64,000 bases of DNA from the NCBI GenBank assembly GCA_029289325.1, contig JARFTV010000007.1, positions 1-64,000 of the forward strand, in the 5' to 3' direction. The notes beneath the pieces were generated by a model. The model had not been told where the DNA came from and ran no database searches. It saw only the letters and a list, made by a program, of their open reading frames with translations. Both the position numbers and the translations under genes were made by a program. The DNA comes from Alphaproteobacteria bacterium. GTDB taxonomy: Bacteria > Pseudomonadota > Alphaproteobacteria > Rhodobacterales > Rhodobacteraceae. Positions 8,982 through 56,737 of this stretch are shown piece after piece (the stretch's first letter is position 1; each line of letters begins with the position of its first letter).

Positions 8982-9046
8982 CGGTTCCTCCCATTTCTCC
9001 GGTGGTGTCAGGTCCGGCCGCTTCTGTTGGCGGTCTGCCCGGCGGT

Positions 9047-21350: not shown

Positions 21351-21504
21351 CGTAGTTGGGTTGCCGTGTTCTACGCTGCAAACTTGGCAGCTGACAACTA
21401 TCGAAATTGCAGTCAAGCCTATCCAATTTGTCGTCGGAGCGTATCATTTGGTACAGGCCGGACGCGCCGCCGCTGGCTACTGTGTCGCGAAATGGAGGGG
21501 TGTC

Positions 21505-23019: not shown

Positions 23020-23028
23020 GGCGGCCGG

Positions 23029-23508: not shown

Positions 23509-23524
23509 GGACAGGGAGACGAGG

Positions 23525-25411: not shown

Positions 25412-25414
25412 CCG

Positions 25415-27178: not shown

Positions 27179-27188
27179 CGGGGACACC

Positions 27189-27644: not shown

Positions 27645-27733
27645 CCCATTGGAACCTATGTCAAAGGGCACACTGCCGACCGGGGGTGCGGTCTACGGTG
27701 CTCGGGGCATGACACAGCAGGGGAGTTGGTAAG

Positions 27734-34142: not shown

Positions 34143-34249
34143 TCCCAATCACGGTCTGTGAATCGGCTATCGCACAGCCACGGCGGCTGGCTTATCCGGC
34201 TGATGGGAAAGCTAGGGGAAACACGGGGTAGGGTCTAGCGAAACGCTGT

Positions 34250-34491: not shown

Positions 34492-36762
34492 ATGGAATTC
34501 ATGCGGTTGTCGGGCTTCTGGTGTTTTGGGAATCCCGCGTCGCCTTCACTGCAGGGCGCGCGAATTATCCTCCGGACCATTGGGTTGTCGCTGGGCCTTG
34601 TCGCACTGGCCGCCTGTACCGTCGACCAGAAACCCCGCGGCCCGACTGTCCAGCTGGTCGCGGCCACCCACCGCCCGACGGGACAGGAAATCATCACCAC
34701 CCGCAAGGATTCCTATGTCCGCTTCTTCTCGCGCGAGAATCTGCGTGACACCTATTTCACGGGCAATGCGGTACCGCGGCTTGCAATGCCGGGGGGCGGC
34801 GGTCCGACCGGCTATATCGACACCAGCGCGCTGAACACGCCCGGAAGCGAGGGTGCGGCGTCCGAGTTCCAGATGGAAATCGCCACCAGGGACATAATTG
34901 TCGAGCCGCTGCGCAACCAGCAGATCATCGGCGGTCAGTGGCAGGGTCAGCTCGACAAGGGCGGCTCGATCCGGCTGAACTATGAGAATGAATCCGTGGA
35001 GCGGGTGGCGCAGGACATCCTCGGCGGTATTCTCGGGGTGAACTATCTGCTGGCCGAAGGCATGACCGAGCCGGTCACCTTCCGCTCCGAACAGCGGTTC
35101 ACCAAGCCCGAGGTATTGCAGGTCCTGGCGGATATCCTTGCTCGGAACGGCTATCTCATTCAGTACTTCAACTCGGTCTATCATGTCGGGCGTCCCAATG
35201 AGCTGGATACGCTGACCGGGCTTCGCGGCCGGACCGCGCTGGAAAGCGACGAATCCTACGTGATCACCCTGCGCAACTCTGCGCCCGAGAACATCGCCGA
35301 GATCGTCAGTGCGCTGATCCCCCCCGGAAACACGGTCACCGCCGTGCCCGAAAGCCGGAATCTCCTGGTCCGGGGCGACCCGTCGCAGTTCCGCGCGATC
35401 GAAGGCCTCGTGGAGTCGCTCTCCGGCAATGGCTCCTCCCGCAACGTGCTCGCGATCATTCCGCTGCGGCGCAGTTCGCCCGAGGTGGTGGCCGACCAGT
35501 TGTCGCAAGTCTATTCCCAACGCGATATCGGCGAGGTGCTGTTCGTCCCGCTTGAGCAGCGGCAGGGGGTGCTGGTCGTCGCAGACACCACAAGTGTCCT
35601 GAACGATGTACGCAAACTCGCGGCCAGCCTTGATGTCGAACTGCGGGATACCGCCAAGCTCCGCGTGATCCAGCTGACCTATCTGAACGCTCAGGAGACC
35701 GCCGGCCAGCTTTCCAGCGTCTTTGGCGGTGGTGAACCGAACCGCCCGACGCAGGAAGAACCGGCAGGCTTCGATTCCGCCATCATCCGTTCGGCTATCG
35801 ACCGGGCGTCCGGCGGTGAGGACAGCGTGACCTCGCCGCCCCCTCCCGGCGGCCGCACTCCGCCGAACCGTCCCCCGGTAGAACTGAGTTCGGGCGTCAC
35901 CATCGCAGCGGACGCGCGTAACAACGCGCTGCTCGTGCGGTCGACCTATGCCGAGTTCAGGCGGATCGCCGCGGCGGTCAAGGCGCTGGATGTTCCGCTT
36001 GCGCAGGTCGTGATCGAGGCGACCATTGTCGAGGTCGACATCAACGACTCGCTGCAATACGGGGTCCAGGCCTTCCTGCAGCGCCGGGGGGACAGTTTCC
36101 GCAGCTCTCCGGTCGCAGGGGCGGCCGATCCGGGCGGACCGGGCTTCTCGGCCCTGCTCACTTCGACCCGCGGCTCGACGAACATCCAGCTTGTGCTGAC
36201 CGCGCTGCAGTCGGTGTCGGATGTGAAGGTGATCTCGTCGCCTTACCTGACGGTGACTGACGGGGCGACCTCGCGTCTGTCGGTGGGCGACCAGATCCCC
36301 TTCGTCACGGCCTCGCAGACATCCAGTTCGGATGGAAATGTCACGGTCACCAAAGAGGTGGAAACGCGGGATGTCGGGGTGATCCTCGAGGTCACGCCGA
36401 AGATCGCCCCCGACAACTCGGTGATCCTCGACATCGTCCAAGAGGTGTCGTCGGCCCGGAACGAGAACACGCCTGCTGGCGACAACCCGACCGTTGCGCA
36501 ACGTCGGCTGGAAAGCCAGATCGTCGTCCAGTCGGGCTCGACCGTTCTGCTGGGCGGCCTGATCCAGGAGCGGTCCGAGATCTCCCGCGACGGTGTGCCC
36601 GTGCTAAGCAGGATCCCTGTGGTCGGCGGGGCGTTCAAGCAGACCGAGGACGGGCAGCGCCGCAGCGAGCTTCTGGTGCTGATCACCCCGCGCGTGGTCC
36701 GCAACAACAGCCAGGTGACCGACCTGACCGACCAGCTGCGCTATCTGATGTCGGCGAACTGA
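34492..36762 (+). CDS. sctC: Type III secretion outer-membrane secretin, GspD-like with extra N-domains
   Basis: A 756-residue secretin. The N-terminus has a hydrophobic segment ending in a lipobox-like LVALAAC, so it may be a lipoprotein. Ring domains follow: N0-like (LGVNYLLAEGMTEPVTFRSE), N1-like (ITLRNSAPENIAEIVSALIP), and further repeats (LAIIPLRRSSPEVVADQLSQ; RVIQLTYLNAQETAGQLSSV). The gate/barrel domain (VLLGGLIQERSEISRDGVPV, LLVLITPRVVRN) ends like type II secretion GspD. T3SS secretins usually have fewer N-domains. No type II genes are nearby, so it must serve this T3SS. An ATG at 34501 is an alternative start with better ribosome-site spacing. Confidence 0.9.
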   Translation: MEFMRLSGFWCFGNPASPSLQGARIILRTIGLSLGLVALAACTVDQKPRGPTVQLVAATHRPTGQEIITTRKDSYVRFFSRENLRDTYFTGNAVPRLAMPGGGGPTGYIDTSALNTPGSEGAASEFQMEIATRDIIVEPLRNQQIIGGQWQGQLDKGGSIRLNYENESVERVAQDILGGILGVNYLLAEGMTEPVTFRSEQRFTKPEVLQVLADILARNGYLIQYFNSVYHVGRPNELDTLTGLRGRTALESDESYVITLRNSAPENIAEIVSALIPPGNTVTAVPESRNLLVRGDPSQFRAIEGLVESLSGNGSSRNVLAIIPLRRSSPEVVADQLSQVYSQRDIGEVLFVPLEQRQGVLVVADTTSVLNDVRKLAASLDVELRDTAKLRVIQLTYLNAQETAGQLSSVFGGGEPNRPTQEEPAGFDSAIIRSAIDRASGGEDSVTSPPPPGGRTPPNRPPVELSSGVTIAADARNNALLVRSTYAEFRRIAAAVKALDVPLAQVVIEATIVEVDINDSLQYGVQAFLQRRGDSFRSSPVAGAADPGGPGFSALLTSTRGSTNIQLVLTALQSVSDVKVISSPYLTVTDGATSRLSVGDQIPFVTASQTSSSDGNVTVTKEVETRDVGVILEVTPKIAPDNSVILDIVQEVSSARNENTPAGDNPTVAQRRLESQIVVQSGSTVLLGGLIQERSEISRDGVPVLSRIPVVGGAFKQTEDGQRRSELLVLITPRVVRNNSQVTDLTDQLRYLMSAN

Positions 36763-36886: not shown

Positions 36887-37738
36887 CTATTGCGGTGCAG
36901 GCAGGCTTCCGGGCGGAGCCTCCAGTGCGGCGCCGGCCCGCAGGATCTCGTAAAGTCGCGCGAAATAGCTGGCGAAGTAGCGATCCTGATCCATCGAGAA
37001 GTTTATCAGGATCGGGAAGGAAAAGACGAGGATCGCAATGGCCAAGGCACTCTTGATCGGCATCGCCAGGATGAAGACCTGAATCTGCGGTGCAAAGCGC
37101 GACACCATCGCCAGCGCGAATTCGGCGAAGAACATCACCGCCACGATCGGAGCCGAGATGACGAAGGCCAGCCGCGTGCCATGGTCAAGGATCTCGAGGA
37201 TCATCGCCGGGAAGGCGTCGCCGAACAGCGGCAGCATCTGGGTGATCGGCCATTCCCGGTAGGACGCATAAAGAAAGCCGGTGATGATCAGAAAGCCGCC
37301 GACCGAGAAGAAATAGGTGATGAAGGCCTGGCTGAACAACAGACCGAGTGGCGAGCTCTCGTGCCCCTGCAGCGGGTCGATCGACGAGGCGATAGCCGCC
37401 CCTCGCTGGTTGTCGATGAAGGTCCCCGCCGCCTGAACCGCCCAGAAGAGCCAGGTCACCATGAACCCCATGATGAAGCCAAGCGCGGCCTCCTTCAGGA
37501 AATACCCGATAAACAGCGGGATGTTCTCGATGAAGATCGGGGCGAAGGGGACCAGCGGCGGGGTCAGCGGCATGGCGATGACAAGGATCGCCACGTTACG
37601 TGCTAGGCGCGGAACGGATGTAGGCGACAAGAGCTGCGAGGCGGCGATGAAGGCATAGCAGCGCGGCAGCGCCAGCAGGAAGCCGACGAGCCACAGCTTG
37701 AATTCCTCGAACAGGAGTGTGGTGGTTTCCAGTTCCAT
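36887..37738 (-). CDS. sctT: Type III secretion export apparatus protein SctT
   Basis: SctT (YscT/SpaR/FliR family) joins SctR and SctS in the export pore. The 283-residue product has six hydrophobic segments and family marks such as LPRCYAFIAASQLLS, GFMVTWLFWAVQAAGTFIDN and QRGAAIASSIDPLQGHESSP. Its length is normal. It is convergent with sctC and divergent from sctW; the 128-bp gap to sctW should hold both promoters. Confidence 0.96.
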   Translation of the reverse strand: MELETTTLLFEEFKLWLVGFLLALPRCYAFIAASQLLSPTSVPRLARNVAILVIAMPLTPPLVPFAPIFIENIPLFIGYFLKEAALGFIMGFMVTWLFWAVQAAGTFIDNQRGAAIASSIDPLQGHESSPLGLLFSQAFITYFFSVGGFLIITGFLYASYREWPITQMLPLFGDAFPAMILEILDHGTRLAFVISAPIVAVMFFAEFALAMVSRFAPQIQVFILAMPIKSALAIAILVFSFPILINFSMDQDRYFASYFARLYEILRAGAALEAPPGSLPAPQ

Positions 37739-37866
37739 CCGGTCGGCCGCTCTTGCGTCGCCACCATGCCCTCCCGCTCGGGCGGAGGCGAGTGTCGTCC
37801 GTCACCGCGCCGCCCGATTGTGACATGATAGCGTCAGGGGGAACTTTCGAAACCGCGGGTCCTGCC

Positions 37867-39069
37867 ATGATCACCACAAACCGCGAGACACAGAACACCC
37901 AACTCGCGACCCATAACGCGGCCTCGCCAGTCGGCGTCGAGGTTATGGCGCGCCAGACCGGACGGGCGCCCGGCTCGGGCGAGGCGGTGCAGGTTTCCTC
38001 GAACAACTCCGACCTGACCTCGGCCCTTGAAGAGATCGGCATGGCCAAGGCCACGCTGGGCAAGCTCGACCTGACCAAGCTGAAGGTCCGCAAGGGTCAG
38101 GGTGACGACCTTGATGCGCTAAGCCGCATCGCTGATTTCTACGACAAACTGCCGAACCTGCCGAACGAGCAGAAGAACCTCGATCTGGTCAAGCGCTTCG
38201 AGACCTATGAAGAGTTCTTCCGGAGCGGCGGCAAAGGCGGCGGCAGCGCTCCGACGGCCGAGGATATCCGTGCCGCCCTGCGCGAATACGACGGCGATAT
38301 CACCCATCAGTTCGCCAAGATCGAGGAACTGCGACAGACTTTCGAGGCCAAAGGTGCCTCGCGGGAGTTTCTTGCCCTGCTCGACGAAGTCAGGGCCGAT
38401 ATGCGCAGCCCCGACAAGGCGCAGGAGATCAAGGCCGGTTTCGCCTCGGCGCAAGAGGCCGTGCGGGTGGCAGACCGCTTCGGTACCGCGCCCGAGGATT
38501 ATCGCGAAAGCTACCGTCAGATGCTGCGATCGGGCGGGGGCAATCCGGGACGGCTGTTCGATGCCTTGGGAGAATTCGCCGCCAGCGGGGTGAAGGGCGA
38601 GAAGAAGGAGTTCGACGCGATTCTGGAAAGCTTCATCCGGGTCGCGGGCGACGACATGAAGAGCTTCGGACGCTCGACCGACAAGGCGATCCTGGGCGAC
38701 GTGATTGCCGAGCTGAAGGTGCTGAAGAATCTCCGAACCACGCTGGAGATGTGCTCGGACATGGTTGACAAGCTGGGCCGGATGTTCCCGGACAAGGCGA
38801 AGGAAATGCCGGGCCCGGTGCTGATCGTGTCGCAGTTCCTGCATTTCATAGCCTCCAGCGCCCGGCGCGATGCCGAGAAGATCGTCGCCAATTTCGAAGG
38901 CGCAGCCCCGGAGCTGCCAGTGGTGGCTATCAACATGCTGCGTGACATTCACGCCCGCGTCCCCGACAGCGCCATGCCCAACGAAAGCGCGCGGCTGCAG
39001 CAGGACAAGGTGCTGAAGGCGGTTTCTGACCAGAAGGTCGCCGCCGAAGAAGCGCATTACGGAGGGTAG
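37867..39069 (+). CDS. sctW: Type III secretion gatekeeper (YopN/MxiC/InvE-TyeA family)
   Basis: SctW blocks effector export until host contact and sets the translocator-effector order. The 400-residue product has a polar N-terminus and then helical repeats (EIGMAKATLGKLDLTKLKVR, FAKIEELRQTFEAKGASREF, LDEVRADMRSPDKAQEIKAG). Its C-terminal TyeA-like part includes VLIVSQFLHFIASSARRDAE. Fused YopN-TyeA proteins of about 370-400 residues are normal. The ATG at 37867 lacks a clear ribosome site; an in-frame ATG 42 bases upstream is the alternative. A small chaperone gene follows after 5 bp. Confidence 0.85.
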   Translation: MITTNRETQNTQLATHNAASPVGVEVMARQTGRAPGSGEAVQVSSNNSDLTSALEEIGMAKATLGKLDLTKLKVRKGQGDDLDALSRIADFYDKLPNLPNEQKNLDLVKRFETYEEFFRSGGKGGGSAPTAEDIRAALREYDGDITHQFAKIEELRQTFEAKGASREFLALLDEVRADMRSPDKAQEIKAGFASAQEAVRVADRFGTAPEDYRESYRQMLRSGGGNPGRLFDALGEFAASGVKGEKKEFDAILESFIRVAGDDMKSFGRSTDKAILGDVIAELKVLKNLRTTLEMCSDMVDKLGRMFPDKAKEMPGPVLIVSQFLHFIASSARRDAEKIVANFEGAAPELPVVAINMLRDIHARVPDSAMPNESARLQQDKVLKAVSDQKVAAEEAHYGG

Positions 39070-43586: not shown

Positions 43587-44926
43587 TCGAAGCCGGGCAG
43601 ATCTTCGCGCTCCTTCGGTCCTTTTCGGCGGCCGAGGTGGCGCGGCGCTTCAATGCCCCGCAGGATGGCATGGTCCTGACCGGCAGGACCCAATCGGCGA
43701 CGGGTGGCGATCCGGGCGGGTCTCGTGGTTCTGTCGAGGGCCGCACCCCGTCGGACATCGAGGCAAACCGTGCTTCCACCGGCAGAAACGCGGGGGTAGG
43801 GGCTGGCGCCCTTGGTGGTGCTGCCGCGTCGCGTCCTGCCGCCGATCTCATGGCGACTGGCCCGGGCGGAGCGGCCAGCCCCGATCCTGCAGACCAGCCA
43901 GCCGCGCTTCGGACCGGTCCCTTGCGGATGGCCCTGTCGCTGGGGCATCTGGCACCGCCGCGCTCCGACCTCGCGCGCCTGTTTGCCGAGGCGGCACTGA
44001 CTGGCCAGCCGCGCAGCGGTGCCCCCCTACCGATGGCAGGGATCCTCGGCGCGGCCTCGGCGCCGGGCGGCAGCCTGACGGGCGCAGCTCAGCCGGGAAC
44101 AGGCCTGGCTGCGAAGGGCGAGGGATCTCTCCCGGTCACCCCCGCGCCGCGCGGCGGTCCTGCGGCGGCTCCGGTCCCGCCCCTGGGCTTCGCGCCGACC
44201 GCGCCCGCAATGCGGACGGGCGAGGCGGTCGACCCCGTTCCGGCAAGGACGATGGCAAGCCCGGACCACCAGCCTGGCCGTCTTGTGCCGACGACCGCCG
44301 CCGCGCTGGCGGAGGGCAGGGCGATCCCTGCAGCGGTTGACGGCAAGGCGCTGGCCGATGCCCCCGGAGGCAACATCTCTGATCCGGCCGCGCCGATGGG
44401 CACTGCGGCCCCTGCCGCAGACTCTCGCCCGGTTTCCCCTCGCGCGACAGCAGCCCAGCTCGCCTTCGCCGAGGTGGTCATGTCGCTGGTCGACGTTGCC
44501 GGCCCCGGCCGAGCGGGGGCGACCTCGCTCGGCTCGGGGGTCATCTTCAATGCGGCGATGATTCCGGGCTGGCCCTATCCCTCGGCCTTCGCCCGTGACG
44601 GGGCCGAAGCTATCAATCCCAAGGCGCTTCTGCATCGCCTCGCCGCGGCCGTCGAAGGCATGTCCCCCGAGGAGGCCGCTGCATATCTGGCCAAGCTCGG
44701 GGGCGGCTATGCCTTTCTGCAGCGCCTGCGCAAGCTTCTGAAGGAACTGGACGAAATCGAGGCCGAGGAGGTGAAGGGCCTGCTCTTCGCATTTCTCGAG
44801 ACCGTCAGCACCATCGCATCGGGCCTGCAGAAGGCGCTTCAGCAGCTGGCGGAAAGCGCCGCGCTGCAAGAGGCGGTCGTCCATGGCGACGATCCCGGAC
44901 CGGGGCGACGGAGGATCAGGCTTTAA
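43583..44926 (+). CDS. Pro/Ala-rich T3SS-associated protein of unknown function
   Basis: A 447-residue product. It begins with a short helix (IEAGQIFALLRSFSAAEVAR) and has a long Ala/Pro/Gly-rich, low-complexity middle (about 35-290). A structured helical C-terminal ~150 residues follows (LLHRLAAAVEGMSPEEAAAY, FLQRLRKLLKELDEIEAEEV). A flexible middle between short ordered ends resembles needle-length rulers or secreted substrates, but a SctP candidate exists at 54175. It is translationally coupled to the TPR gene upstream and overlaps the convergent ExbD-like gene by 11 bases. Confidence 0.6.
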   Translation: MIEAGQIFALLRSFSAAEVARRFNAPQDGMVLTGRTQSATGGDPGGSRGSVEGRTPSDIEANRASTGRNAGVGAGALGGAAASRPAADLMATGPGGAASPDPADQPAALRTGPLRMALSLGHLAPPRSDLARLFAEAALTGQPRSGAPLPMAGILGAASAPGGSLTGAAQPGTGLAAKGEGSLPVTPAPRGGPAAAPVPPLGFAPTAPAMRTGEAVDPVPARTMASPDHQPGRLVPTTAAALAEGRAIPAAVDGKALADAPGGNISDPAAPMGTAAPAADSRPVSPRATAAQLAFAEVVMSLVDVAGPGRAGATSLGSGVIFNAAMIPGWPYPSAFARDGAEAINPKALLHRLAAAVEGMSPEEAAAYLAKLGGGYAFLQRLRKLLKELDEIEAEEVKGLLFAFLETVSTIASGLQKALQQLAESAALQEAVVHGDDPGPGRRRIRL

Positions 44927-45545
44927 GTGCCCAGCGGTGCAGCCGGGTCAGACCCCATAGCGCGGCCAGCAGGGCCAGAAGCCGCAATCCCGTCAGCATT
45001 CCCTCAAGCCAGCGCCAAAGCCTGATCCCCGTGTCACGGCCCCCCAAAGCCTCGGACCCGGGCAGCGCCCCCGCCCGCGCGCGATCGGTCAAGAGGTCCT
45101 GCAGACCGGCGCGAAACGCGTCGGCGTCGTCGGCCACCTCGGCCAAGGCCAGAAAGTCGGGATGCCAGCCGTTCTCGGCGGTTTTCAGCGCCTCGGGCAC
45201 CGTCAACTCCTGCCAGTCCTGGCCGCGCTCCTTCAGGGCGGCCGCGACTGCGGGATGGGCGGCGGGATGAAGGATGTAGAGCGTACGCACCTCATCCGAC
45301 GGGTCCGGTCCTTCCGGCCCCAGATCCAGATCGCCGCTCCTTCCCGGCAGCAGCCGCAGCCGCAGAAGCTCGACCGCGTCTGCGCCGCCAATCGGCTGCA
45401 CCCGTCGCACCTGCAACAGCAGGGCCGGGTCTGCCGGTGGTTCGACGGCGGCCACCCGGGCCAGCGCGATCAGGACCATCAGCGTCATCGCCAGCAGGTT
45501 CGCCGCGATATCCGCCAGCCACGGCCCTTGCAGCCTTCGGATCAT
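44916..45545 (-). CDS. ExbD/TolR-like single-pass membrane protein, second copy, in the sctV operon
   Basis: A 209-residue protein. Its N-terminal helix (WLADIAANLLAMTLMVLIAL) carries an aspartate (D12) at the position of the proton-binding Asp of ExbD/MotB plugs. A periplasmic domain (about 35-180) and a second hydrophobic segment near the C-terminus (LRLLALLAALWGLTRLHRW) follow; the latter is unusual for ExbD. The ATG at 45545 overlaps the stop of the first ExbD-like gene (ATGA). It is the last of four overlapping genes sctV-exbB-exbD-exbD2. Confidence 0.6.
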   Translation of the reverse strand: MIRRLQGPWLADIAANLLAMTLMVLIALARVAAVEPPADPALLLQVRRVQPIGGADAVELLRLRLLPGRSGDLDLGPEGPDPSDEVRTLYILHPAAHPAVAAALKERGQDWQELTVPEALKTAENGWHPDFLALAEVADDADAFRAGLQDLLTDRARAGALPGSEALGGRDTGIRLWRWLEGMLTGLRLLALLAALWGLTRLHRWALKA

Positions 45546-46000
45546 GGCTGGCACAGGATCCCCGCCGCCGTCTGGCGCAGGGCGCGGCAGTCCCCCGGCA
45601 GGCGCAGGGTGGGGATCGGCTCGGGCCGCAGGCTGGCCACGCGCGAGAAGGTCAGGAAGGCCGCCTCTTGCCCGGCCGCGGCAACGATCAGGAGCGGATC
45701 GTCCTGCAACCAGCCTTCCAGCCGCGGGTCCTGCCAGAGACTGTCCAGAGCGATCAGTTCCTCACGCCCTCCGACGATCTGGCGCAGGCCCGCCGCTTCC
45801 GCCAGAAGAACCGGACCGCCCGGATCGATCCCTTTCACGGCCCGCAGCGTCGCCTCTGGCCCCGGGGCGCGGGCGGTGACCACGCGCTCCACCACCGCGC
45901 GAAGGTTCAGCGAGATTGCCGCGACGACGACCAGCATGATTGCCCCCAGCCCGAAGAACAGGTCCGACGCCACAAGGTTCAGCGGACCCTGATCCTTCAT
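45542..46000 (-). CDS. ExbD/MotB-like single-pass membrane protein in the sctV operon
   Basis: A 152-residue protein. Residues 6-32 (PLNLVASDLFFGLGAIMLVV and on) match the ExbD/TolR N-terminal helix, with D13 in place of the conserved proton-carrying Asp. The remaining ~115 residues form a small periplasmic domain with two cysteines near the end. The ATG at 46000 overlaps the stop of the ExbB-like gene (ATGA). ExbD-type proteins form the plug inside an ExbB pentamer and couple proton flow to periplasmic work. Confidence 0.65.
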   Translation of the reverse strand: MKDQGPLNLVASDLFFGLGAIMLVVVAAISLNLRAVVERVVTARAPGPEATLRAVKGIDPGGPVLLAEAAGLRQIVGGREELIALDSLWQDPRLEGWLQDDPLLIVAAAGQEAAFLTFSRVASLRPEPIPTLRLPGDCRALRQTAAGILCQP

Positions 46001-46791
46001 GCGGGCGGCTCTTCGTCCGGCAGAAGCAGCGCCACCACGGCCACGACCACGGCCGCTAGCAATCCCAGAAGCGTGGTCTCGAAAGCGGTGCCCAGCCCGC
46101 CCAGCAGGGTTTGCAGGGCCTCGGTGGACGGGGTGGCGGTGGCAAAGATCGCGGGCAGCGACTGCAAGGCCACCATGATCCCCCAGACCGTCCCCGCAAA
46201 GCCGAGGAGTGGCAGAAGCTGCGTCATCCCCGCGATCATCCGCGCCTCGTCGGCCGAGGCAGGGCCCGCGACCGCGATCCGAGCCTGCGCCGCAAGGACC
46301 AGACAGGCGACATAGGCGATGGCCAGATGCGCGGGTGAACGCAGGATCCAGCGATCCGCCAAGGCAGCGGCGCCCAGCAGCTCTGCCAGCGTCAGCGCGG
46401 CTGCCAGCACGAGGCCAGCACGGGCAAAGGCCGCGCGCGTACCAACTCCCGGCAGGAGCGAGAGCGCCAGCACAGCCGCGAACAGCGCCAGGATCAGCGG
46501 CCACAAACGCAACGCGCCCGCCGCCGCGTCAAGGTCGGTCACCCCGGCCAGCACGACCAGCAACGCCGCCGCTGGGCACAGGCCCAGCATGGTGCCCGCC
46601 AGTCCCTGGAACCCCTGCACCTCGCCCGAAATGAGGAGCAGCAGACAGGCCGCGATCAGCCCGGCCCCGAGGATCGACAGCAGCATTGTGGGGGGCACCA
46701 GCGCCAGGCCCCATCCAGCCCAGAACGCTGCGGCCGAGGCCCCGGCCAGAAGCGCCGCCCCCGTGTTGCGCCGCCCGACCAGGGAGGTCAT
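45997..46791 (-). CDS. MotA/TolQ/ExbB-family proton channel protein in the sctV operon
   Basis: A 264-residue, very hydrophobic protein. The last ~85 residues carry the MotA/ExbB core: LLPLLGFAGTVWGIMVALQS, then LLGGLGTAFETTLLGLLAAV. The GxxGTVxG and AFxTTxxGL motifs are the ones that line the proton path. About five extra N-terminal transmembrane segments precede it. The ATG at 46791 overlaps the sctV stop (ATGA), so it is made together with the export gate. ExbB homologues are not part of known T3SS machines. Confidence 0.8.
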   Translation of the reverse strand: MTSLVGRRNTGAALLAGASAAAFWAGWGLALVPPTMLLSILGAGLIAACLLLLISGEVQGFQGLAGTMLGLCPAAALLVVLAGVTDLDAAAGALRLWPLILALFAAVLALSLLPGVGTRAAFARAGLVLAAALTLAELLGAAALADRWILRSPAHLAIAYVACLVLAAQARIAVAGPASADEARMIAGMTQLLPLLGFAGTVWGIMVALQSLPAIFATATPSTEALQTLLGGLGTAFETTLLGLLAAVVVAVVALLLPDEEPPA

Positions 46792-48896
46792 CGCAGCTCG
46801 ATCCGCTCAAGCGGCTGGATGTTCACCTGCGGCGACAGCTCCTGGAAGGACAGGACCGCCAGATCGGGGAAGTCGCGTTCGACGATCTTGCGCATGAAGC
46901 GCCGGATATCCATCGGCGCCAGCACCACCGGCTTCAGGGAATGGCGCGAGAAATCCCCGATCGTCGCCGAAAGCCCCGCCAGCAGCTTCTTGTGCGTGTC
47001 GGGCGACAGCGCCAGGTAGGATGCACCCGAGGTCTGCCGGATCGCGCCGCGCACCTCGTCCTCGATCTTCTTCGACAGAAGATAGGCGGAAATCACCGAC
47101 TGCCCGCCGGCAAACTTATGGGTGATGTAACGGTTCAGGGCCGAGCGGACATGTTCCGTCAGCAGGATCGCATCCTTCTCGCGCTGGCCCCATTCCACCA
47201 GCGCCTCAAGGATCGTGCGCATGTCGCGGATCGAGATTTCTTCGCTGACCAGGCGCTGCAACACATCCGCGATGGTGATGATCGGCAAGGCGCGGGTCAC
47301 CTCCCGCACCAGTTCGCGGAAGTTGGTCTCCATCTCGTTCAGAAGATACATGGTCTCCTGCACGCCGACGAATTCCCCGGCATGGGCCTTCAGCACATGG
47401 GCGAGGTGATAGGTCAGCATCGCGGGCAGGTTCAGCACCTGCATCTCGGCCCGCTGCAATAGGGGTTCATGCTTGTTCGAGACCCAGAGCGACGGCGTGT
47501 TCGGCAGGAAGTCGTCACCCTTCTCATAGGGGATGTCGAACATCTTCAGGTTCGCCTCGGTCTCGCGCACGATGACCTTGCCGGGACGCGACTTGCCCGC
47601 GGCCACCGGGATCTCGTTGACGAGGATACGGTATTCGTCCTCTTCCAGCGTCTCGTTCAGGCGCAGATGGACGCCGGGGAAGGGCACGCCAAGATCGAAA
47701 TACAGCGCCCGGCGCACCTTGGCGACCTCGTTGTCCAAGCGACGCGGGTCAATGTAGTTGCGGACCGAGCTGGAGATGTCGACGATCAGCGGGACGGTCA
47801 GGGCGAAGGTCACCGGCTCGACCTTCTCGAAGTCGTCGCCCGCCTTGCCGGGGAAGGACGGAGCCTTCCCCGCGGGCGCAAGCGCCGGGGCAAGGGCGGG
47901 CATCGACCGGCTGTCGGCCTTCAACGCCTCGGCCGTGCGGCGGCGCATGATCAGGATGCCGCCCCCGCCCACCACAGCCGCCAGCCCCAGAAAGACCAGC
48001 GTGGGAAAGCCCGGCGTTGCGGCGAAGACCAGCAGGATGCCGCAGGCGATCAGCAGGGCCTTGGGCTCGCTGACCAGCTGCTTGCCGATGTCGCTGCCAA
48101 GGTTCTCGCTGCCCTCCGAGGCGACGCGCGTGACGATGAACCCGGCGGTGATCGACACGAAAAGCGCCGGGATCTGGCTGACCAGCCCGTCACCGATGGT
48201 CAGGATCGCATAGACGTCCAGCGCCTGCCCGGTGGTCATCCCCATCTGCAGCACGCCGATGCTGATGCCGCCGATGATGTTGACGAAGATGATGATCAGC
48301 CCGGCGATGGCGTCGCCCTTGACGAACTTCATCGCCCCGTCCATCGAGCCGTAGAGCTGGCTTTCCATTTCCAGCTTGCTGCGGCGGGCCTTGGCGGCGT
48401 CCATGTCGATCAGCCCGGCGCGCATGTCGCTGTCGATCGACATCTGCTTGCCCGGCATCGCATCCAGGCTGAATCGGGCCGAAACCTCGGCCACCCGCTC
48501 CGAGCCCTTGGTGATGACCATGAAGTTCACGATGGTCAGGATGAGGAAGATCACCGCCCCGACGACGAGGTTCCCCTGCACGACGAAGCTGCCGAAGGTC
48601 GCCACGATCTCGCCCGCGTTGGCCTGCAGCAGAATCAGGCGGGTCGTGGTGATCGACAGGGCCAGCCGGAAAAGCGTGGTCAGAAGCAGAATCGACGGGA
48701 AGGCGGAAAAGGCAACGATATCCTTGACATAGATCGCCGCCATCAGCAGCACCGCCGACAGCGTCAGGTTGATCGCCAGCAGCACGTCGACCAGCCAGGT
48801 CGGCAGCGGCAGGATCATCATGAAGACGATGCAGACAAGCAGGAACGCAAGGACAACGTCGTTCCGCTGGGACATCACAAGCAACAGCTTCTGCAC
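46788..48896 (-). CDS. sctV: Type III secretion export gate protein SctV
   Basis: SctV (LcrD/InvA/FlhA family) forms the nonameric export gate and is thought to use the proton motive force. The 702-residue product has eight N-terminal transmembrane segments and the FHIPEP-type region (FPSILLLTTLFRLALSITTT), plus MPGKQMSIDSDMRAGLID. A C-terminal cytosolic ring domain follows (LRLNETLEEDEYRILVNEIP, FVGVQETMYLLNEME). The GTG at 48896 after AGGAGGAAC gives the family length; the longer open frame to 49043 runs through the promoter region. It starts an operon with ExbB/ExbD-like genes. Confidence 0.96.
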   Translation of the reverse strand: MQKLLLVMSQRNDVVLAFLLVCIVFMMILPLPTWLVDVLLAINLTLSAVLLMAAIYVKDIVAFSAFPSILLLTTLFRLALSITTTRLILLQANAGEIVATFGSFVVQGNLVVGAVIFLILTIVNFMVITKGSERVAEVSARFSLDAMPGKQMSIDSDMRAGLIDMDAAKARRSKLEMESQLYGSMDGAMKFVKGDAIAGLIIIFVNIIGGISIGVLQMGMTTGQALDVYAILTIGDGLVSQIPALFVSITAGFIVTRVASEGSENLGSDIGKQLVSEPKALLIACGILLVFAATPGFPTLVFLGLAAVVGGGGILIMRRRTAEALKADSRSMPALAPALAPAGKAPSFPGKAGDDFEKVEPVTFALTVPLIVDISSSVRNYIDPRRLDNEVAKVRRALYFDLGVPFPGVHLRLNETLEEDEYRILVNEIPVAAGKSRPGKVIVRETEANLKMFDIPYEKGDDFLPNTPSLWVSNKHEPLLQRAEMQVLNLPAMLTYHLAHVLKAHAGEFVGVQETMYLLNEMETNFRELVREVTRALPIITIADVLQRLVSEEISIRDMRTILEALVEWGQREKDAILLTEHVRSALNRYITHKFAGGQSVISAYLLSKKIEDEVRGAIRQTSGASYLALSPDTHKKLLAGLSATIGDFSRHSLKPVVLAPMDIRRFMRKIVERDFPDLAVLSFQELSPQVNIQPLERIELR

Positions 48897-49492: not shown

Positions 49493-50062
49493 ATGAGCAC
49501 CGGGATCGAAGCCGCGAATTCCTTTCTGTCGGCAGTGCAGGGCACGACCCCGGCCAACGCCCCGGCCGCGCGGGTGGACGGTCTTGGCCATTCGCTGTCG
49601 GTCCGCAACTTCGAGGATATCCTGCGCCTCGCCCGGACCCCGGATGTGCAGGGTGTGCAAGGGGTCCAGCTGGCCCAGGCCGATGTGACCACGATCCCCG
49701 GCGCCACCGCGACCGATCTGACGCCGCCGCTTCTGTCCGCCCCCGGCACGCCCCCTGTGGCCGAGGTCGCCCCCTCGGCCGAGGCCGATCCACGCCTGCG
49801 CGCGGCCGAGGGGCTGGGCCTGAACCGGGATGATCCCTCGGGGCCGGGCAATTCGATCCTGAACGGGCTGGAGCAGCTGCGCGCGACCTTCGACGGTCAG
49901 TACAACTCGGTCGGCGCCCGGCTGGAGGGGACCACGATGGACGTGGCCTCGATGATGGAGCTGCAGGCCGAAGTGGTGAAATATTCGGTGTTGGTTGATG
50001 TGTCCTCCAAGCTGGCGGGCAAGGTGACCACATCGATCGACAGCCTGATGAAAGGCCAGTGA
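49493..50062 (+). CDS. sctI: Type III secretion inner rod protein
   Basis: SctI forms the short rod that anchors the needle. The 189-residue product has a variable N-terminus and a typical C-terminal region: SMMELQAEVVKYSVLVDVSS, then KLAGKVTTSIDSLMKGQ. This is the conserved end of rod proteins. It sits just before sctJ, the usual place. The family is typically 90-150 residues, so this one is long in its disordered N-terminal half. Confidence 0.85.
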   Translation: MSTGIEAANSFLSAVQGTTPANAPAARVDGLGHSLSVRNFEDILRLARTPDVQGVQGVQLAQADVTTIPGATATDLTPPLLSAPGTPPVAEVAPSAEADPRLRAAEGLGLNRDDPSGPGNSILNGLEQLRATFDGQYNSVGARLEGTTMDVASMMELQAEVVKYSVLVDVSSKLAGKVTTSIDSLMKGQ

Positions 50063-50109
50063 TGACCGGGACGAAGTGGCGACAGGCCAGCTGCGGGGCG
50101 AAGTGAGTG

Positions 50110-50892
50110 ATGCCTAGGATGCGTATACTGGGGGTTGTCGCCAGCCTCTTCCTGCTTTCCGCCTGTCAGACCGAAATCTACACCAACCTGTCCGAACGCG
50201 AAGCGAACGAGATGCTCGCTGCGCTGATGGAGAAGGGGATCAACGCCACCAAGAAAGCGATCGGCGACCAGAGGTTCGGCGTCGCCGTCGCCAATGAGGA
50301 GGTGCGCACTGCGCTGGCGATCCTGAACGAACAGGGCTTGCCGCAAAGCAGCCGGCAAAGCATCGGGCAGGTCTTCGCCAAATCGGGGATCGTCTCCTCG
50401 CCCTTCGAGGAAAGGGTACGCTACATCTACGCCCTGGGCGAAGAGGTGGCGCAGACCCTGCAGCAGATCGACGGCGTTCTGGTCGCCCGCGTCCACATCG
50501 TGATGCCCGAAAAGCCGGAACTGGGCCAGGAGGCCAGACCCTCCTCCGCGGCCGTGTTCATCAAGCAGAAGGTCGGCTTCGACCTTGATTTCTTGGTGCC
50601 GCAGATCCGCCGGCTGGTCGCGAACTCGATCGAGGGCGTGCGTTACGAGGAAGTCTCGGTCGTCCTGGTCGAGGCACAGCCGCAGTTGCAGTCTGATCGG
50701 GCCGAGGCGCGGGATGTCGTGGAACCCGTGCCGGGCCTGCAGATGGCGGCGGCATCCACCGCGACCTTCTGGGTGGCCTCCGGCGTGGTGGCACTGCTGC
50801 TGGCCGCCCTGTCTACCGGGCTGGTCTTTCTCTGGCGCTGGAACGCGGGCCTGCGGGCCCGTCTGACTGGCGCCGATCAGGCCGACGGCTAA
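50110..50892 (+). CDS. sctJ: Type III secretion inner-membrane ring lipoprotein
   Basis: SctJ (YscJ/PrgK/FliF-related) forms the inner ring of the basal body. The 260-residue product has a lipoprotein signal (ILGVVASLFLLSAC), the SctJ-type domains (LSEREANEMLAALMEKGINA, LALLNEQ-type segment AILNEQGLPQ, VLVARVHIVMPEKPELGQEA) and a C-terminal transmembrane helix (VASGVVALLLAALSTGLVFL). The start may be this ATG, the GTG one codon before it, or the ATG at 50119. Confidence 0.95.
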   Translation: MPRMRILGVVASLFLLSACQTEIYTNLSEREANEMLAALMEKGINATKKAIGDQRFGVAVANEEVRTALAILNEQGLPQSSRQSIGQVFAKSGIVSSPFEERVRYIYALGEEVAQTLQQIDGVLVARVHIVMPEKPELGQEARPSSAAVFIKQKVGFDLDFLVPQIRRLVANSIEGVRYEEVSVVLVEAQPQLQSDRAEARDVVEPVPGLQMAAASTATFWVASGVVALLLAALSTGLVFLWRWNAGLRARLTGADQADG

Positions 50893-50895
50893 GGG

Positions 50896-51597
50896 ATGGC
50901 GGGGGCTCTCAGCCTGGGCCAGCCTTCCGGTCGCACGGCGCTGGCCGTCGCGGCCTTCATCGCGCGCCCGGTCTCGGCGCTGAAACCGGCCGCGCTGGAC
51001 CGCTGGCTGGCGGATGTCGGAGGCCGTGACTTGCGGCCGATGCTGGGCGCGAAAGGCGCTCTCCGCGCGGTCGAAACCTACCTGTCCGAAGTGACGGGCG
51101 CCCGCCGCCTGCCGGTGGACGACGCCCTGCTGAACCGCCTGCGCACCCGGACCGAGGTGGTCATCGCAGTCGAGATCGCGCTGGCCCCGTTCGCGCGGCT
51201 TGACCGGCTCAAGGCTCATGTCGTCGGTGCGGTCTGTCGGGATGCGGTGCGCGGCGCGCTTCTGCGCTCGGACCGTCAGGCGCTTGAGGCGCTGCTCGGG
51301 CCTGAAATCCAGGATTTCGCCGCCCGCCAGGCCGCGACCTTCTATCCCGCGCTGGCACAGCTTGCGCCGCATCTGACACCCATCCTCCGCAGCGCCGATG
51401 ACACGGCCTTCGCCGCGCACCCGGTGAACACCGCCGCCGCCCGGATCGTCGCGGCCGCCATCGGGGCCGAGGCGCCGATCGCTGCCGCGATCCTCTCGAT
51501 CCGTGAAACAGGGTCGGCCGAGGACCCCGCGCCGCTTGCCCTTACCGTGGCGCAGGCGAACGAGGTGCTGCGACTTTGGCAAAGAGAGGCGCGATGA
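50896..51597 (+). CDS. sctK: Probable T3SS sorting platform accessory protein SctK
   Basis: A 233-residue Ala/Arg/Leu-rich helical protein between sctJ and sctL, the place of yscK/orgA. Segments include ALDRWLADVGGRDLRPMLG, VVIAVEIALAPFARLDRLKA and FYPALAQLAPHLTPILRSAD. SctK caps the cytosolic pods by binding SctQ and SctD. Identity rests mostly on position because the family is poorly conserved. Its stop overlaps the sctL start (ATGA). Confidence 0.6.
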   Translation: MAGALSLGQPSGRTALAVAAFIARPVSALKPAALDRWLADVGGRDLRPMLGAKGALRAVETYLSEVTGARRLPVDDALLNRLRTRTEVVIAVEIALAPFARLDRLKAHVVGAVCRDAVRGALLRSDRQALEALLGPEIQDFAARQAATFYPALAQLAPHLTPILRSADDTAFAAHPVNTAAARIVAAAIGAEAPIAAAILSIRETGSAEDPAPLALTVAQANEVLRLWQREAR

Positions 51598-52202
51598 CCA
51601 GCTTCTACCGTCTCCGCCCGCTGGGACACGGGCTTGCCGCGCCGTCGGGCGTCGTCAAGGCTGCGGACCTTGCCGAACTCGGCCAGGCCGGCGACATTCT
51701 GGCCGAGGCCGAGCGTCAGGCCGCCCGGATCCGCGCCGAGGCCGAGGAGGTCTATCAAAGCGAAAAGCGCCGGGGATAGGCCGAGGGCCGGGCCGAGGCC
51801 GAGGCCGAACGCGCGCTCCGCAGGATCGAGGATATGGCACGGATCGACGCGCGCCTCGCCGATCTGGAAAGCGAACTGGGCGGTGTTGTCTTTGCCTGCG
51901 TCCGGCAGATCATCGAAGGCTTCGAGGATCAGGCGCTGGCCGAAGAGGTCGCGCGCTCGGCCCTGGCCTCGATGCGCAGCGAACAGCGCGGCCAGCTTTA
52001 TGTCTCCACCGCCGCGCTGAAGCATACGCGGGCCGCGCTGCCGGACCTGCTCAAGGATTTCCCCGAGATCGAACTGATTGACGTGATCGAGGATGCGAAC
52101 CTCACCGCGCCCGATGTCCGGCTGGAAAGCGCGATGGGCGTGGTGACCTTTGTACTGGACGACACACTGGCCGCGCTGAAGCGGCTGCTAGAGCAGCGCT
52201 AG
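51594..52202 (+). pseudogene. sctL: T3SS ATPase stator gene with in-frame amber codon at 51777-51779
   Basis: SctL (YscL/FliH) links the ATPase to the pods. From the ATG at 51594 the frame reads TSFYRLRPLGHGLAAPSGVV and a stator-type coiled coil (AEAERQAARIRAEAEEVYQS, EKRRG). A TAG at codon 62 follows. The same frame continues without another stop: AEGRAEAEAERALRRIEDMA and a C-terminal domain (FACVRQIIEGFEDQALAEEV, VIEDANLTAPDVRLESAMGV) that is clearly SctL. Related stators often have tyrosine at this point (RRGY), so one base change TAC/TAT to TAG would explain it. Reinitiation at the ATG at 51834 could give the C-terminal 122 residues. It may also be a sequencing error. Confidence 0.85.
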
Positions 52203-52226: not shown

Positions 52227-53675
52227 ATGACGACCATGCCGGAAAGTCAGACGCTCCAGCCCGCGGCGGGTGCCACGCCCGTCGGGTTGCAGGCCGTGCT
52301 GGCCGAGGGCCGGGCCGAGGCCGCCGCCCAGACGGACCATGCCGCGCTGATCGACCGCCGGTTCGACGGTATCGCCAGCCGGTTGCGCGCCAGGGCCAAG
52401 GGTGTCGTCCCCTTCCGCATGACCGGCCGGGTCCGCAAGGTCGTCGGCACCATCATCCATGCCATCGCCCCCGACGTGCAGGTCGGCGAGCTGGTGAACC
52501 TCCACACGCGCGAGACCGGCCATCGGCTTGCCGCCGAGGTGGTGGGCTTCGTGGGCAGCGAGGCGCTTCTGTCCCCCATCGGCGAGACGATGGGCGTCTC
52601 GCCCAATACCGAGGTCCTGCCCACCGGACGCGTCCAGTCTGTCGCCGTGGGGCCGGGGCTCATCGGGCGGGTGCTGGACGGCTTCGGAAATTTCGTTGAC
52701 GGCAAGCCCGACCTTTTCGAACCCGAGGCTTTCTATCCGGTCTACCGCGCATCGCCCGACCCGATGACCCGCCGCGTGATCAAGGACCCGATCTCGCTGG
52801 GGGTGCGGGCCATCGACGGTCTTCTCACCTGCGGCGAGGGGCAGCGGATGGGCATCTTTGCCGCCGCCGGCGGGGGGAAATCCACGCTTCTGGGGATGCT
52901 GGTCAACGGCGCCGACGTCGATGTGACCGTCCTCGCCCTGATCGGCGAACGGGGCCGCGAGGTGCGTGAGTTCATCGAGCACGAGCTTGGCCCCGAGGGG
53001 CTGAAGAAATCGATCCTTGTCGTCGCGACCTCCGACAAATCCTCGATGGAGCGGGCCAAGGCCGCCTCGGTCGCGACCTCCATCGCCGAATATTTCCGCG
53101 ATCAGGGCAAGAAGGTCCTGTTCCTGATGGACAGCGTGACCCGCTTTGCCCGCGCGCAGCGCGAGATCGGCCTTGCCGCCGGTGAGCCGCCGACCCGTCG
53201 GGGCTTTCCGCCCTCGGTCTTTGCCAACCTGCCCAAGCTGATGGAGCGGGTGGGGATGAACGACAAGGGTTCAATCACGGCGCTCTATACCGTGCTGGTC
53301 GAGGGCGACGACATGAACGAACCCGTCGCGGACGAGACGCGCTCGATCCTTGACGGCCACATTATCCTGTCGCGCAAGCTGGCGGCGCAGAACCATTATC
53401 CGGCCATCGACATCCTCGCCTCGAAAAGCCGGGTGATGACCAAGGTCGTCGACCGCGCCCATGTCGATGCGGCGGGCAAGGTGAACGAATGGATGGCGCT
53501 GTATAACGAGGTCGAGCTTCTGGTGAAGATCGGCGAATACCAGTCGGGCAGCGATCCGCGCTCGGACAAGGCCATCGCCATGCAGGACAGGATCCGCGAG
53601 TTTCTCCGCCAGCGCACCGATGAGCTTGAGGATTACGCCTCCACCCTCGCCAAGCTGAAGGCGCTGACCGCATGA
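52227..53675 (+). CDS. sctN: Type III secretion ATPase
   Basis: SctN (YscN/FliI) is the hexameric ATPase that strips chaperones and feeds substrates. The 482-residue product has Walker [13 protein letters not shown] (about 211-222), catalytic [14 protein letters not shown], Walker [21 protein letters not shown] and the region [20 protein letters not shown]. It has a C-terminal helical domain and normal family length. sctO follows with a four-base overlap. Confidence 0.97.
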
Positions 53676-54178: not shown

Positions 54179-54831
54179 GCGTGAGCTTGTCAAACAACTC
54201 GCATCCCGAACCGGGGCTGGGGCAGAACCGACCGGAAAGCTCGCTGTCCTCGGATGCGGGCCTGGGGCGTCAGGCAGGGCAGGGCGGGACGCGCCGGGAC
54301 GAGACGGGCGACATGGTCAAGGCCGCGGCCTTCGCCATGCAGCTTGCCGGGGCGCGGGCCAATGCCGCGCTGGATCTTGGATCGGATGACAGCGATGTGG
54401 TCGTGGTCGCCACCTCACCCGCGCCGCCGCTGGCGCTGATGCTCGCCCCGGTGGCCGAGGCCGATGCGGCGAAGCGCAGCGCCGAGATTGCCGCCCTGGC
54501 CCAGACCCTGGGGGCCGAGGTCGATGCGGTGGACCGCCTGCGCCTTGGTGGCAATGCGCCGGTGACACTGACCGTGCCGCTCAATGCCAGCGCCCTCGGC
54601 CTGGCAGAGGCGCGGCTCGTCGTGGCGAGGGGCGAACTGACCGTGGTCTTTCCGGTCGCGGCGGGCACGGACATGGCCGTGGTCAACGGCGCTTTGGGTG
54701 AACTGGCCCAGACCCTGTCGCAGCGCTTTCCGCATCGCACCATCCGCCTCCGCGGCGAGGAAGAGGGGCGGGATGCCCTTGAGCCGACGGAATTCAACCC
54801 TCTCAAGGACCCCGTCGGACGGCGCAAGTGA
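54175..54831 (+). CDS. sctP: Probable needle length regulator SctP
   Basis: A 218-residue product between sctO and sctQ, where yscP/spaN occurs. The N-terminal ~50 residues are Gly/Ser/Asn-rich and disordered. The C-terminal part (about 120-205; APVTLTVPLNASALGLAEAR, LVVARGELTVVFPVA, FPHRTIRLRGEE) has the short strand-rich pattern of the substrate-switch domain. It is short for a ruler protein (YscP is about 450-515). Identity rests on position and weak pattern. Confidence 0.6.
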   Translation: MSVSLSNNSHPEPGLGQNRPESSLSSDAGLGRQAGQGGTRRDETGDMVKAAAFAMQLAGARANAALDLGSDDSDVVVVATSPAPPLALMLAPVAEADAAKRSAEIAALAQTLGAEVDAVDRLRLGGNAPVTLTVPLNASALGLAEARLVVARGELTVVFPVAAGTDMAVVNGALGELAQTLSQRFPHRTIRLRGEEEGRDALEPTEFNPLKDPVGRRK

Positions 54832-55811
54832 CCCTGGACGCAACCCCATTCCTGACCGAAACGCAGCTGTGGAACGCGATCGTGCGCCACTTCGGCACGG
54901 CCCTGCCGCTGCCCGCCGGTCAGGTCGTGCTGACCGAAACCACCCCACCGCCCGAAACCGCGCCCCGCGCCGTTGTCGGCGTAGGTCCCGATATCGCCCT
55001 GACCCTGGCGATGGAGGACTTTCCTTTCGGCCGCCTGACCGGGGTGGAGCTGACCCTGGCCGAGGTCGCCACTCTCCCCCCCGCCCTCTCCGAGGGCCTG
55101 ATCCTTGGCGCCATCGAGGCGCTGCGCGGGGCCCTACCGCCGACACTTGCGTCGCATCTTTCGCTTCCCCCACAGCTTGGCGGACCGGACCGGCCGATCT
55201 GGCTTGGGGTGGAACTCGACCTTGGCTCCGGCGCGGTGGCGCGCGGACGGATCGGCGGGCGGACGCAGGATTTCGTTCAGGTTCTGGCCCGACTGTTCCC
55301 GGCAACGACCGGCCACATGCCGCCCTTGCCGGCGGGGCTCCTGCAGGGGTTGGCGACGGATATCGCACTCTCGGCCGGCGAAATGGTGCTGTCCCTGGCC
55401 GAGGTCATGGCGCTTGGGCCGGGCGACGCGCTGCTCGCGCCGATTGCCCCCGATCGGCGGAGCTTCCTCCTGGGGCGGCACGAAGTTGTGGCCGCGGCAC
55501 AGGCTGAAGGCGGCTGGACTGTGATGGAGATACGCATGACCGCGGAGACGCCCGAAACCGCGCCCGAGGCGCTGAGCCTTGACGATGTTCCGCTGACCCT
55601 GCGCTTCGTGACCGAGGATCGGCGCATCTCGCTCGCCGACCTGCAGGGTCTTGCGGCTGGGGCGGTGCTCCCGTTCGAGGTGACCCCGCTGGCGGCCGGG
55701 CTTGCGGTGAAGATCCAGGCCAATGGTATCACCATCGGCGAGGGCCATCTGATCCAGATCGACGACAGCTTCGCCGTGCGCATCGCGCGGATGGTGCCGA
55801 AAGGTGCCTGA
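54828..55811 (+). CDS. sctQ: Type III secretion cytosolic sorting platform protein (SpoA domains)
   Basis: SctQ (YscQ/FliMN-related) builds the pods that dock substrates. The 327-residue product ends with a SpoA domain: LDDVPLTLRFVTEDRRISLA, AVLPFEVTPLAAGLAVKIQA, GEGHLIQIDDSFAVRIARM (about 245-325). The first two-thirds are more variable. It starts at a GTG that overlaps the sctP stop. An internal start producing a separate SpoA fragment is known in other SctQ genes; the ATG around 55524 is a candidate for this (inference). Confidence 0.88.
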   Translation: MTLDATPFLTETQLWNAIVRHFGTALPLPAGQVVLTETTPPPETAPRAVVGVGPDIALTLAMEDFPFGRLTGVELTLAEVATLPPALSEGLILGAIEALRGALPPTLASHLSLPPQLGGPDRPIWLGVELDLGSGAVARGRIGGRTQDFVQVLARLFPATTGHMPPLPAGLLQGLATDIALSAGEMVLSLAEVMALGPGDALLAPIAPDRRSFLLGRHEVVAAAQAEGGWTVMEIRMTAETPETAPEALSLDDVPLTLRFVTEDRRISLADLQGLAAGAVLPFEVTPLAAGLAVKIQANGITIGEGHLIQIDDSFAVRIARMVPKGA

Positions 55812-55817
55812 CCCGCG

Positions 55818-56459
55818 ATGATCGATCCGCTTAACCTTATCCTTGCCCTGGTGGTCGCGGGCCTCGTCCCGTTCATCGCGGTCGTGGCGACGGCCTTCAT
55901 CAAGATCTCGGTCATCCTGCTTCTGGTCCGCAACGCCCTGGGGGTGCAGCAGATTCCGCCGAACATGGTGCTGAACGCGCTGGCGATCATCATGTCGGGC
56001 TACATCATGGCCCCGGTCTTCGTCGAAACCTTCGACATCCTCGCCTCGGGCAATTACCGCTTCGACAGCGTCGAGGCCGTGCGCGAGACCTTCGTCGCCG
56101 CCAAGGACCCGCTGGTCGAATGGCTGAAGCGCCATTCCGACACGCGAGAGACAACCTTCTTCGTCGAAGCCGCCAAGCAGATCTGGCCGCCTTCGCTGGC
56201 CGAATACGCCAATGCCGACAATCTGGCGATCATCCTGCCCGCCTTCACCGTCAGCCAGCTGCGCGAGGCGTTCGAGATCGGCTTCCTGCTGTATCTGCCC
56301 TTCATCGCCATCGACCTGATCGTGTCGAACATCCTTCTGGCCTTGGGCATGATGATGGTGTCTCCTCTGACCATCTCGCTGCCGTTCAAACTGTTCCTTT
56401 TCGTCATGGTCGACGGCTGGTCCCGGCTGATCCTTGGCATCATCAAGACCTATACCTGA
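55818..56459 (+). CDS. sctR: Type III secretion export apparatus protein SctR
   Basis: SctR (YscR/SpaP/FliP) forms most of the export pore core (five copies). The 213-residue product has four transmembrane segments and highly conserved marks: FIKISVILLLVRNALGVQQI, PPNMVLNALAIIMSGYIMAP and FIAIDLIVSNILLALGMMMV. Its length is normal. It is followed after 8 bp by sctS. Confidence 0.97.
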   Translation: MIDPLNLILALVVAGLVPFIAVVATAFIKISVILLLVRNALGVQQIPPNMVLNALAIIMSGYIMAPVFVETFDILASGNYRFDSVEAVRETFVAAKDPLVEWLKRHSDTRETTFFVEAAKQIWPPSLAEYANADNLAIILPAFTVSQLREAFEIGFLLYLPFIAIDLIVSNILLALGMMMVSPLTISLPFKLFLFVMVDGWSRLILGIIKTYT

Positions 56460-56467
56460 GGTAGGAC

Positions 56468-56737
56468 ATGTCTCCTGAAGACGCGATGTTCCAGATCACC
56501 GAGGCGATGATGCTGGTGATGATCCTCTCGATGCCGCCGATCCTGGTGGCCTCGGTGGTGGGGGTGGTGGTCAGCCTCTTGCAGGCGCTGACCCAGATCC
56601 AGGAACAGACGCTCAGCTTTGCCGTCAAGCTGATCGCCGTGGCGCTGACGATCGTTGCCATGGCCGGGATCCTGGGGTCGGAGATGCTGAACTTCACGAT
56701 CAAGCTCTTCGAGGATTTCCCCTCGATCGTCGGCTAG
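56468..56737 (+). CDS. sctS: Type III secretion export apparatus protein SctS
   Basis: SctS (YscS/SpaQ/FliQ) is the small two-helix pore subunit. The 89-residue product has both helices ([20 protein letters not shown] and [20 protein letters not shown]) joined by the conserved loop [13 protein letters not shown]. It is the last gene of the island on this side. sctT and sctU are elsewhere in the island rather than following sctS. Confidence 0.97.

Follow-up and report, generated by a model that had tools for sequence, protein, structure and literature searches.

The stretch of contig JARFTV010000007.1 analysed here, 64,000 nucleotides from an alphaproteobacterium of the family Rhodobacteraceae (hereafter the window), carries a gene cluster for a type III secretion system (T3SS), inside which four genes follow each other on the minus strand: sctV, a gene of the ExbB type and two small genes for putative plug proteins, termed D1 and D2. 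sctV (46788-48896), which starts with GTG, encodes the proton subunit of the export gate, a protein of 702 amino acids that matches the NCBIfam model hrcV/SctV TIGR01399 with 924.7 bits (cut-off 692). Behind it come the ExbB/TolQ-like channel subunit (45997-46791, 264 amino acids), identified by Pfam MotA_ExbB, PDB profile matches and hydropathy, the first plug D1 (45542-46000, 152 amino acids) and the second plug D2 (44916-45545, 209 amino acids), the latter characterized by alignment, AlphaFold and hydropathy. Each junction is a 4-base ATGA overlap, and the coordinates thus agree with the end-to-start overlaps described in an earlier reading of this DNA that was made from the letters only (the sequence-only reading). 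That reading also called the genes translationally fused to sctV, although they overlap and are not fused, and the interval that it gave, 45542-48896, is too short, as D2 ends outside it at 44916.

The Pfam MotA_ExbB (PF01618) match of the ExbB-type protein scores 38 bits (cut-off 22.9) and is limited to residues 177-254, which comprise the last two helices, while in a PDB profile search TolQ is the best match (E 7.5e-6) and ExbB is found with E 2.2e-4. The motifs GFAGTVWG and AFETTLLGL, to which the sequence-only reading had drawn attention, are both present. Hydropathy predicts eight hydrophobic segments, with pore helices at about 193-211 and 238-253; the longest gap between segments is 26 residues and predicted to be periplasmic, so that, judged by hydropathy only, the protein has no cytoplasmic domain. 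T201 and T240 align with T145 and T178 of TolQ and are identical in 10 of 10 ExbB sequences, a set that omits L064, the locus of a Roseicyclus metagenome-assembled genome (MAG) with an interrupted frame. The equivalent of TolQ Glu173 is not kept, and Glu238 is invariant. In L064, exbB is split over two frames (8598-9381), and the near-identical copy of Roseicyclus Amp-Y-6 is intact.

The first hydrophobic helix of each plug carries an Asp at its N-terminal end, D13 in D1 and D12 in D2. All 11 relatives compared, which include two near-identical Roseicyclus sequences, keep this Asp in both proteins. The motif D-x3-N occurs at this Asp in 9/11 D2 and in 0/11 D1 proteins; the one string match in a D1 protein, that of genome G999, sits at residue 3. 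By hydropathy, D1 possesses a single membrane helix, followed by a periplasmic domain with an invariant Cys pair (C138 and C150), whereas D2 contains a periplasmic part of about 150 residues and an additional C-terminal membrane helix (AlphaFold predicted local distance difference test score 77.0). Pfam ExbD (PF02472) gives no match with E of 1 or lower to the 10 D1 and 10 D2 members compared, the D1 and D2 profiles reach 1.0% and 0.3% against 15 canonical ExbD/TolR sequences, with no detectable sequence homology, and no relevant Pfam family was found for either protein. The predicted channel subunit with two Asp-bearing plugs is supported and is conserved behind sctV; for the ExbD-like periplasmic fold that had also been expected there are weak signs in D1, through a faint likeness to TolR, and none in D2. 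In TolQRA, the proton path has been described as a proton-accepting Asp23 together with a Thr pair (PMC12583513); by alignment, the core of such a Tol-type path, Thr pair and plug Asp, is kept in the module formed by ExbB, D1 and D2.

SctV has its own proton path. D45, R85, R94, R147, R154, D158, K203, D208 and R270 of FlhA, among which Asp208 is reported as essential (PMC3139655), are all kept in 18 of 19 SctV rows, and the 19th row (L063), which ends at a contig edge, shows 6/6 of its visible positions. Since these nine charged positions are retained, a replacement of the SctV proton path by ExbB-D1-D2 is ruled out and the module is an addition to SctV, as had been proposed.

The quartet is a real feature, neither an artefact nor confined to one genome. 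When ExbB was scanned against the order (390 genomes), most of its length was matched only in the window genome (G000) and in genomes G246 and G254, which contain the same four genes in the same order; the 8 weaker ExbB matches, among the 11 of 390 genomes with any, span 63-152 C-terminal residues and were excluded from the module members. An alignment of the three ExbB sequences was then used for a wide scan of one genome per species in 84,980 species, which yielded 71 loci. The nine best (L059-L067) are from KLAP11, Celeribacter, a Rhodobacter MAG, Phaeobacter, an alphaproteobacterial MAG, two Roseicyclus, Tabrizicola and Marivita, and include the loci of G246 (L060) and G254 (L066) already found in the first scan. 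In 9/9, sctV (76-91% identical) lies directly before ExbB, and D1 and D2 lie directly after it. With G999, in which ExbB also stands directly behind sctV and is followed by D1 and D2, carriers of the quartet total 11 genomes, which rules out that the linkage to sctV is unique to one genome; across carriers, the distances within the quartet range from a 17-base overlap to a 19-base gap. Selection by SctV at least 75% identical gave G000, G246, G254, G999, G881 and G040, and the module is present in five of these six (G881 and L063 are the same contig by coordinates). In four genomes with more distant SctV proteins (G006, G092, G081 and G1005; 46-47% identical), ExbB matches are on contigs other than that of sctV. 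Scans with the single ExbB sequence found no relative among genome contigs, a plasmid scan found none, and a survey of the class at E up to 1e-12 returned 1 of 385 genomes, the window's own; the three-sequence alignment alone yielded relatives. Within the sampled genomes, the close ExbB family is exclusive to this T3SS.

Every well-supported group of the module tree is also found in the SctV tree. The shared groups are the window with KLAP11, Rhodobacter with Tabrizicola, Celeribacter with Phaeobacter, and the two Roseicyclus; Celeribacter and Phaeobacter are further grouped with the Roseicyclus pair in both trees. Co-evolution of module and SctV measured by distance ranks was not significant. 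The ratio of nonsynonymous to synonymous substitution rates (dN/dS) is 0.25-0.47 in three diverged pairs, values that are rough because dS exceeds 1. The two closely related Roseicyclus show a smaller ratio; by these values, the module is under purifying selection. It evolves faster than SctV: between the window and KLAP11, identity is 91% for SctV, 64% for ExbB, 56% for D1 and 51% for D2.

The remaining 62 of the 71 loci (L068-L129) belong mostly to Planctomycetota, Verrucomicrobiota and Lentisphaeria/Victivallales, and no T3SS genes were found in the stretches of them that were examined. Two stop at a contig edge, leaving 60 evaluable loci, in 54 of which two proteins that each have a membrane helix at the N-terminus come after ExbB (the other 6 have no plug followers by the rule applied). 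An automatic rule placed an Asp at the helix start of both plugs in 50/54, and in 3 of the other 4 the Asp falls just outside the rule's window. Among 24 of the distant loci, the AFETT motif is present in 24/24 ExbB proteins, and D-x3-N in 24/24 second plugs and 1/24 first plugs. The ExbB profiles of the T3SS family and the distant operons match with 98.4% in hhalign over 84 columns, and in comparisons of first-helix profiles D1 fits the first plug (E 1.3e-4 vs 0.01) and D2 marginally the second (0.004 vs 0.007). Despite this shared ExbB profile, gene order, AFETT motif and D-x3-N in the second plug, the distant operons differ from the T3SS module in their larger plugs, in the fewer hydrophobic segments of their ExbB and in the lack of T3SS genes in the stretches examined; in two loci scanned, their plugs matched no Pfam family. 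Because the order of genes, the split of D-x3-N and the first-helix profiles recur, the pairing of ExbB with two unlike plugs appears to be a design used more than once. The shared order in 54/60 loci, with D-x3-N as a mark of the second plug, also speaks for the earlier suggestion that the two plugs may form a heterodimer.

The closest known system is AglRQS of Myxococcus xanthus, a motor of an envelope-spanning machine that is described as having two unlike ExbD-type genes behind a single MotA/TolQ/ExbB gene, with proteins of 245, 162 and 194 amino acids (264, 152 and 209 in the module; PMC3169522). AglQ and AglS are described as matching Pfam ExbD (6.7e-18 and 3.1e-15), which D1 and D2 do not, and AglRQS serves gliding and not a T3SS; its likeness to the module is one to the published description (PMC3169522). 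TolQR/ExbBD of Escherichia coli shares the Thr pair of the pore helices, the plug Asp and the order of channel then plug, and TolQ ranks first among the PDB sequence matches, but its channel subunit has three transmembrane helices, whereas the module has eight hydrophobic segments without a cytoplasmic domain, two unlike plugs and no Glu173. The second, C-terminal membrane helix of D2 also sets the module apart from described motors. GldLM is described as an inner-membrane motor that uses protons to power type IX protein secretion, and one of its channel helices is reported to contain a conserved Glu (PMC8986121), as Glu238 is invariant in the module; it belongs to another secretion system, and the likeness is by description, not by sequence. 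At the T3SS export gate itself, the proton-motive force (PMF) is used by the FlhA/SctV proton unit as described in PMC13308203, which is present here as SctV, and the module would be a second, separate PMF device. Given the AglRQS precedent of one ExbB with two ExbD proteins (PMC3169522) and that of GldLM for secretion (PMC8986121), the module, which the sequence-only reading ranked as its best candidate for an undescribed system, is not of an entirely unfamiliar kind. What appears to be new is the presence of motor genes of the Tol/Exb/Agl type in a T3SS, the motor type itself being already known; a literature search, mostly not of full texts and weak on subscription journals, found no description of an ExbB-type module in a T3SS.

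Based on these results, we propose, with a probability of roughly 60%, that ExbB, D1 and D2 together form a membrane motor of the ExbB/TolQ class which is driven by protons, has two plugs and is dedicated to this T3SS. In such a motor, a ring of ExbB subunits would surround one D1 and one D2 helix, if the stoichiometry assumed here is correct, the proton-binding Asp of each plug would face the polar ring of Thr201/Thr240, and protons crossing the ring would turn or flex ExbB relative to the plugs. As ExbB is predicted to be without a cytoplasmic domain, the output would not be a contact of the MotA-FliG type and may pass through the periplasmic domains of D1 and D2 or sideways in the membrane. 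The most likely target would be the SctV/SctJ/SctD base, the product of the same operon and place, with SctV as the first candidate because of the gene order. The second membrane helix of D2 may block turning of the plugs, a role that wall-binding domains have in other motors. By gene position, the link between module and secretion appears strong, and we infer a role as energiser or in gate control, as the sequence-only reading did. A more specific picture, which we offer tentatively and would not bet on as a whole, is that of an injectisome with its own "stator", in which the export gate or the needle base is driven or cranked, at the expense of the PMF, by ExbB and a D1-D2 heterodimer. Such a T3SS would possess two distinct proton motors, SctV and ExbB-D1-D2; the second would have been recruited from a wider, unnamed class with heteromeric plugs, represented by the two-plug operons found in Planctomycetota and Verrucomicrobiota.

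The proposed motor has to be weighed against G040, whose T3SS is of the same SctV clade and lacks the module; its best ExbB match is partial and elsewhere in the genome. This counts against a strict need for the module. Support for the placement of G040 among the SctV sequences is weak (81/85), so that either a loss of the module or its original absence from this genome would be compatible with the tree. Behind sctV of G040 (L043) stand other small genes and, by appearance, a Crp/FNR-like regulator.

One could also suppose that the module is a proton- or contact-gated sensor or regulator, which would open or close SctV in response to PMF, pH or the state of the needle and do no bulk mechanical work. 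The overlap and co-inheritance with sctV, the invariant Cys pair in the periplasmic domain of D1, the absence of a cytoplasmic torque domain from ExbB and the proton path that SctV already has would all suit such a device, but a pure sensor would not need the central motor residues, all of which are kept, and family scans detected no known sensor domain; we consider it unlikely. It is slightly more doubtful that the module is a Tol/Ton-like envelope helper, exerting a pull on the secretin in the outer membrane or remodelling the wall round the needle base, with sctV as a mere operon neighbour. TolQ and ExbB are the best PDB relatives, D1 is weakly TolR-like and the secretin of the cluster is GspD-like, all of which would fit, yet G040 has a related secretin (43%) without the module, and the family scans, which covered part of the window's open reading frames (ORFs), found no wall-binding or TonB/TolA-type protein. 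It is highly improbable that the module is a passenger without relation to the T3SS, such as a ZorAB-like defence operon or a generic ion transporter that landed behind sctV: the best PADLOC match of ExbB is ZorA2, a weak one (2.8e-7, 27.6 bits), the distant relatives have no T3SS genes in view and G040 lacks the module, but the close family was found only behind sctV in the scans made and shares its tree with sctV, and neither D1 nor D2 has a PADLOC match.

How T3SSs use the PMF has yet to be settled; rotary gating by FlhA has been put forward in a 2026 preprint (PMC13308203). A T3SS lineage with an added Tol/Exb-type motor beside a relative without it would allow a direct comparison of how secretion proceeds when a second PMF input is present and when it is absent. 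The conserved two-plug design would also bear on the question, left open in the review PMC9389320, of whether AglQ pairs with AglS or each forms homodimers.

Other parts of the T3SS lie on both sides of the quartet. R, S, U, V, N, J, Q, I and D were identified in the window and T by a genome search, several of them below curated cut-offs. On the plus strand are sctU (29604-30731; NCBIfam TIGR01404, 389 bits), a sctW-like gatekeeper (37717-39069; TIGR02568, 47 bits, under the cut-off of 89.5), the inner rod gene sctI (49493-50062; TIGR02497, 24.1 bits), sctJ (50107-50892; TIGR02544, 225 bits), the ATPase gene sctN (52227-53675; TIGR02546, 641 bits), sctQ of the cytoplasmic ring (54828-55811; TIGR02551, 79 bits, under the cut-off of 100.8), sctR (55818-56459; TIGR01102, 265.8 bits) and sctS (56468-56737; TIGR01403, 96 bits). 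A sctD-like gene for an inner-ring protein of 773 amino acids (31827-34148; TIGR02500, 81.2 bits, under the cut-off of 86) and sctT (36986-37708; TIGR01401, 191.5 bits) are on the minus strand. Family scans also place chaperones and SctB in the cluster and assigned no needle subunit SctF in it. The secretin (34492-36762, plus strand) is nearer to type II GspD (342.9 bits) than to SctC (113.7 bits), and its relatives are present in the clusters of G246, G999, G040, Phaeobacter, Tabrizicola and Rhodobacter. The frame of sctL (51576-52202, plus strand) contains an in-frame TAG at 51777-51779, either a true nonsense codon or a sequence error, and of the two pieces one matches the N-terminal and the other the C-terminal part of SctL models.

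Upstream of sctU are four large ORFs of 578, 628, 587 and 457 amino acids (21283-29107, plus strand), which are partly conserved in G246, G254 and G999 and possibly encode secreted or translocator proteins; three have no NCBIfam match and the first (578 amino acids) has weak ones of coiled-coil type. Apart from the T3SS cluster, contig C29 of the window genome carries FlhA-like, FliR-like and MotA_ExbB genes together (61102-68408), which are probably a flagellar set.

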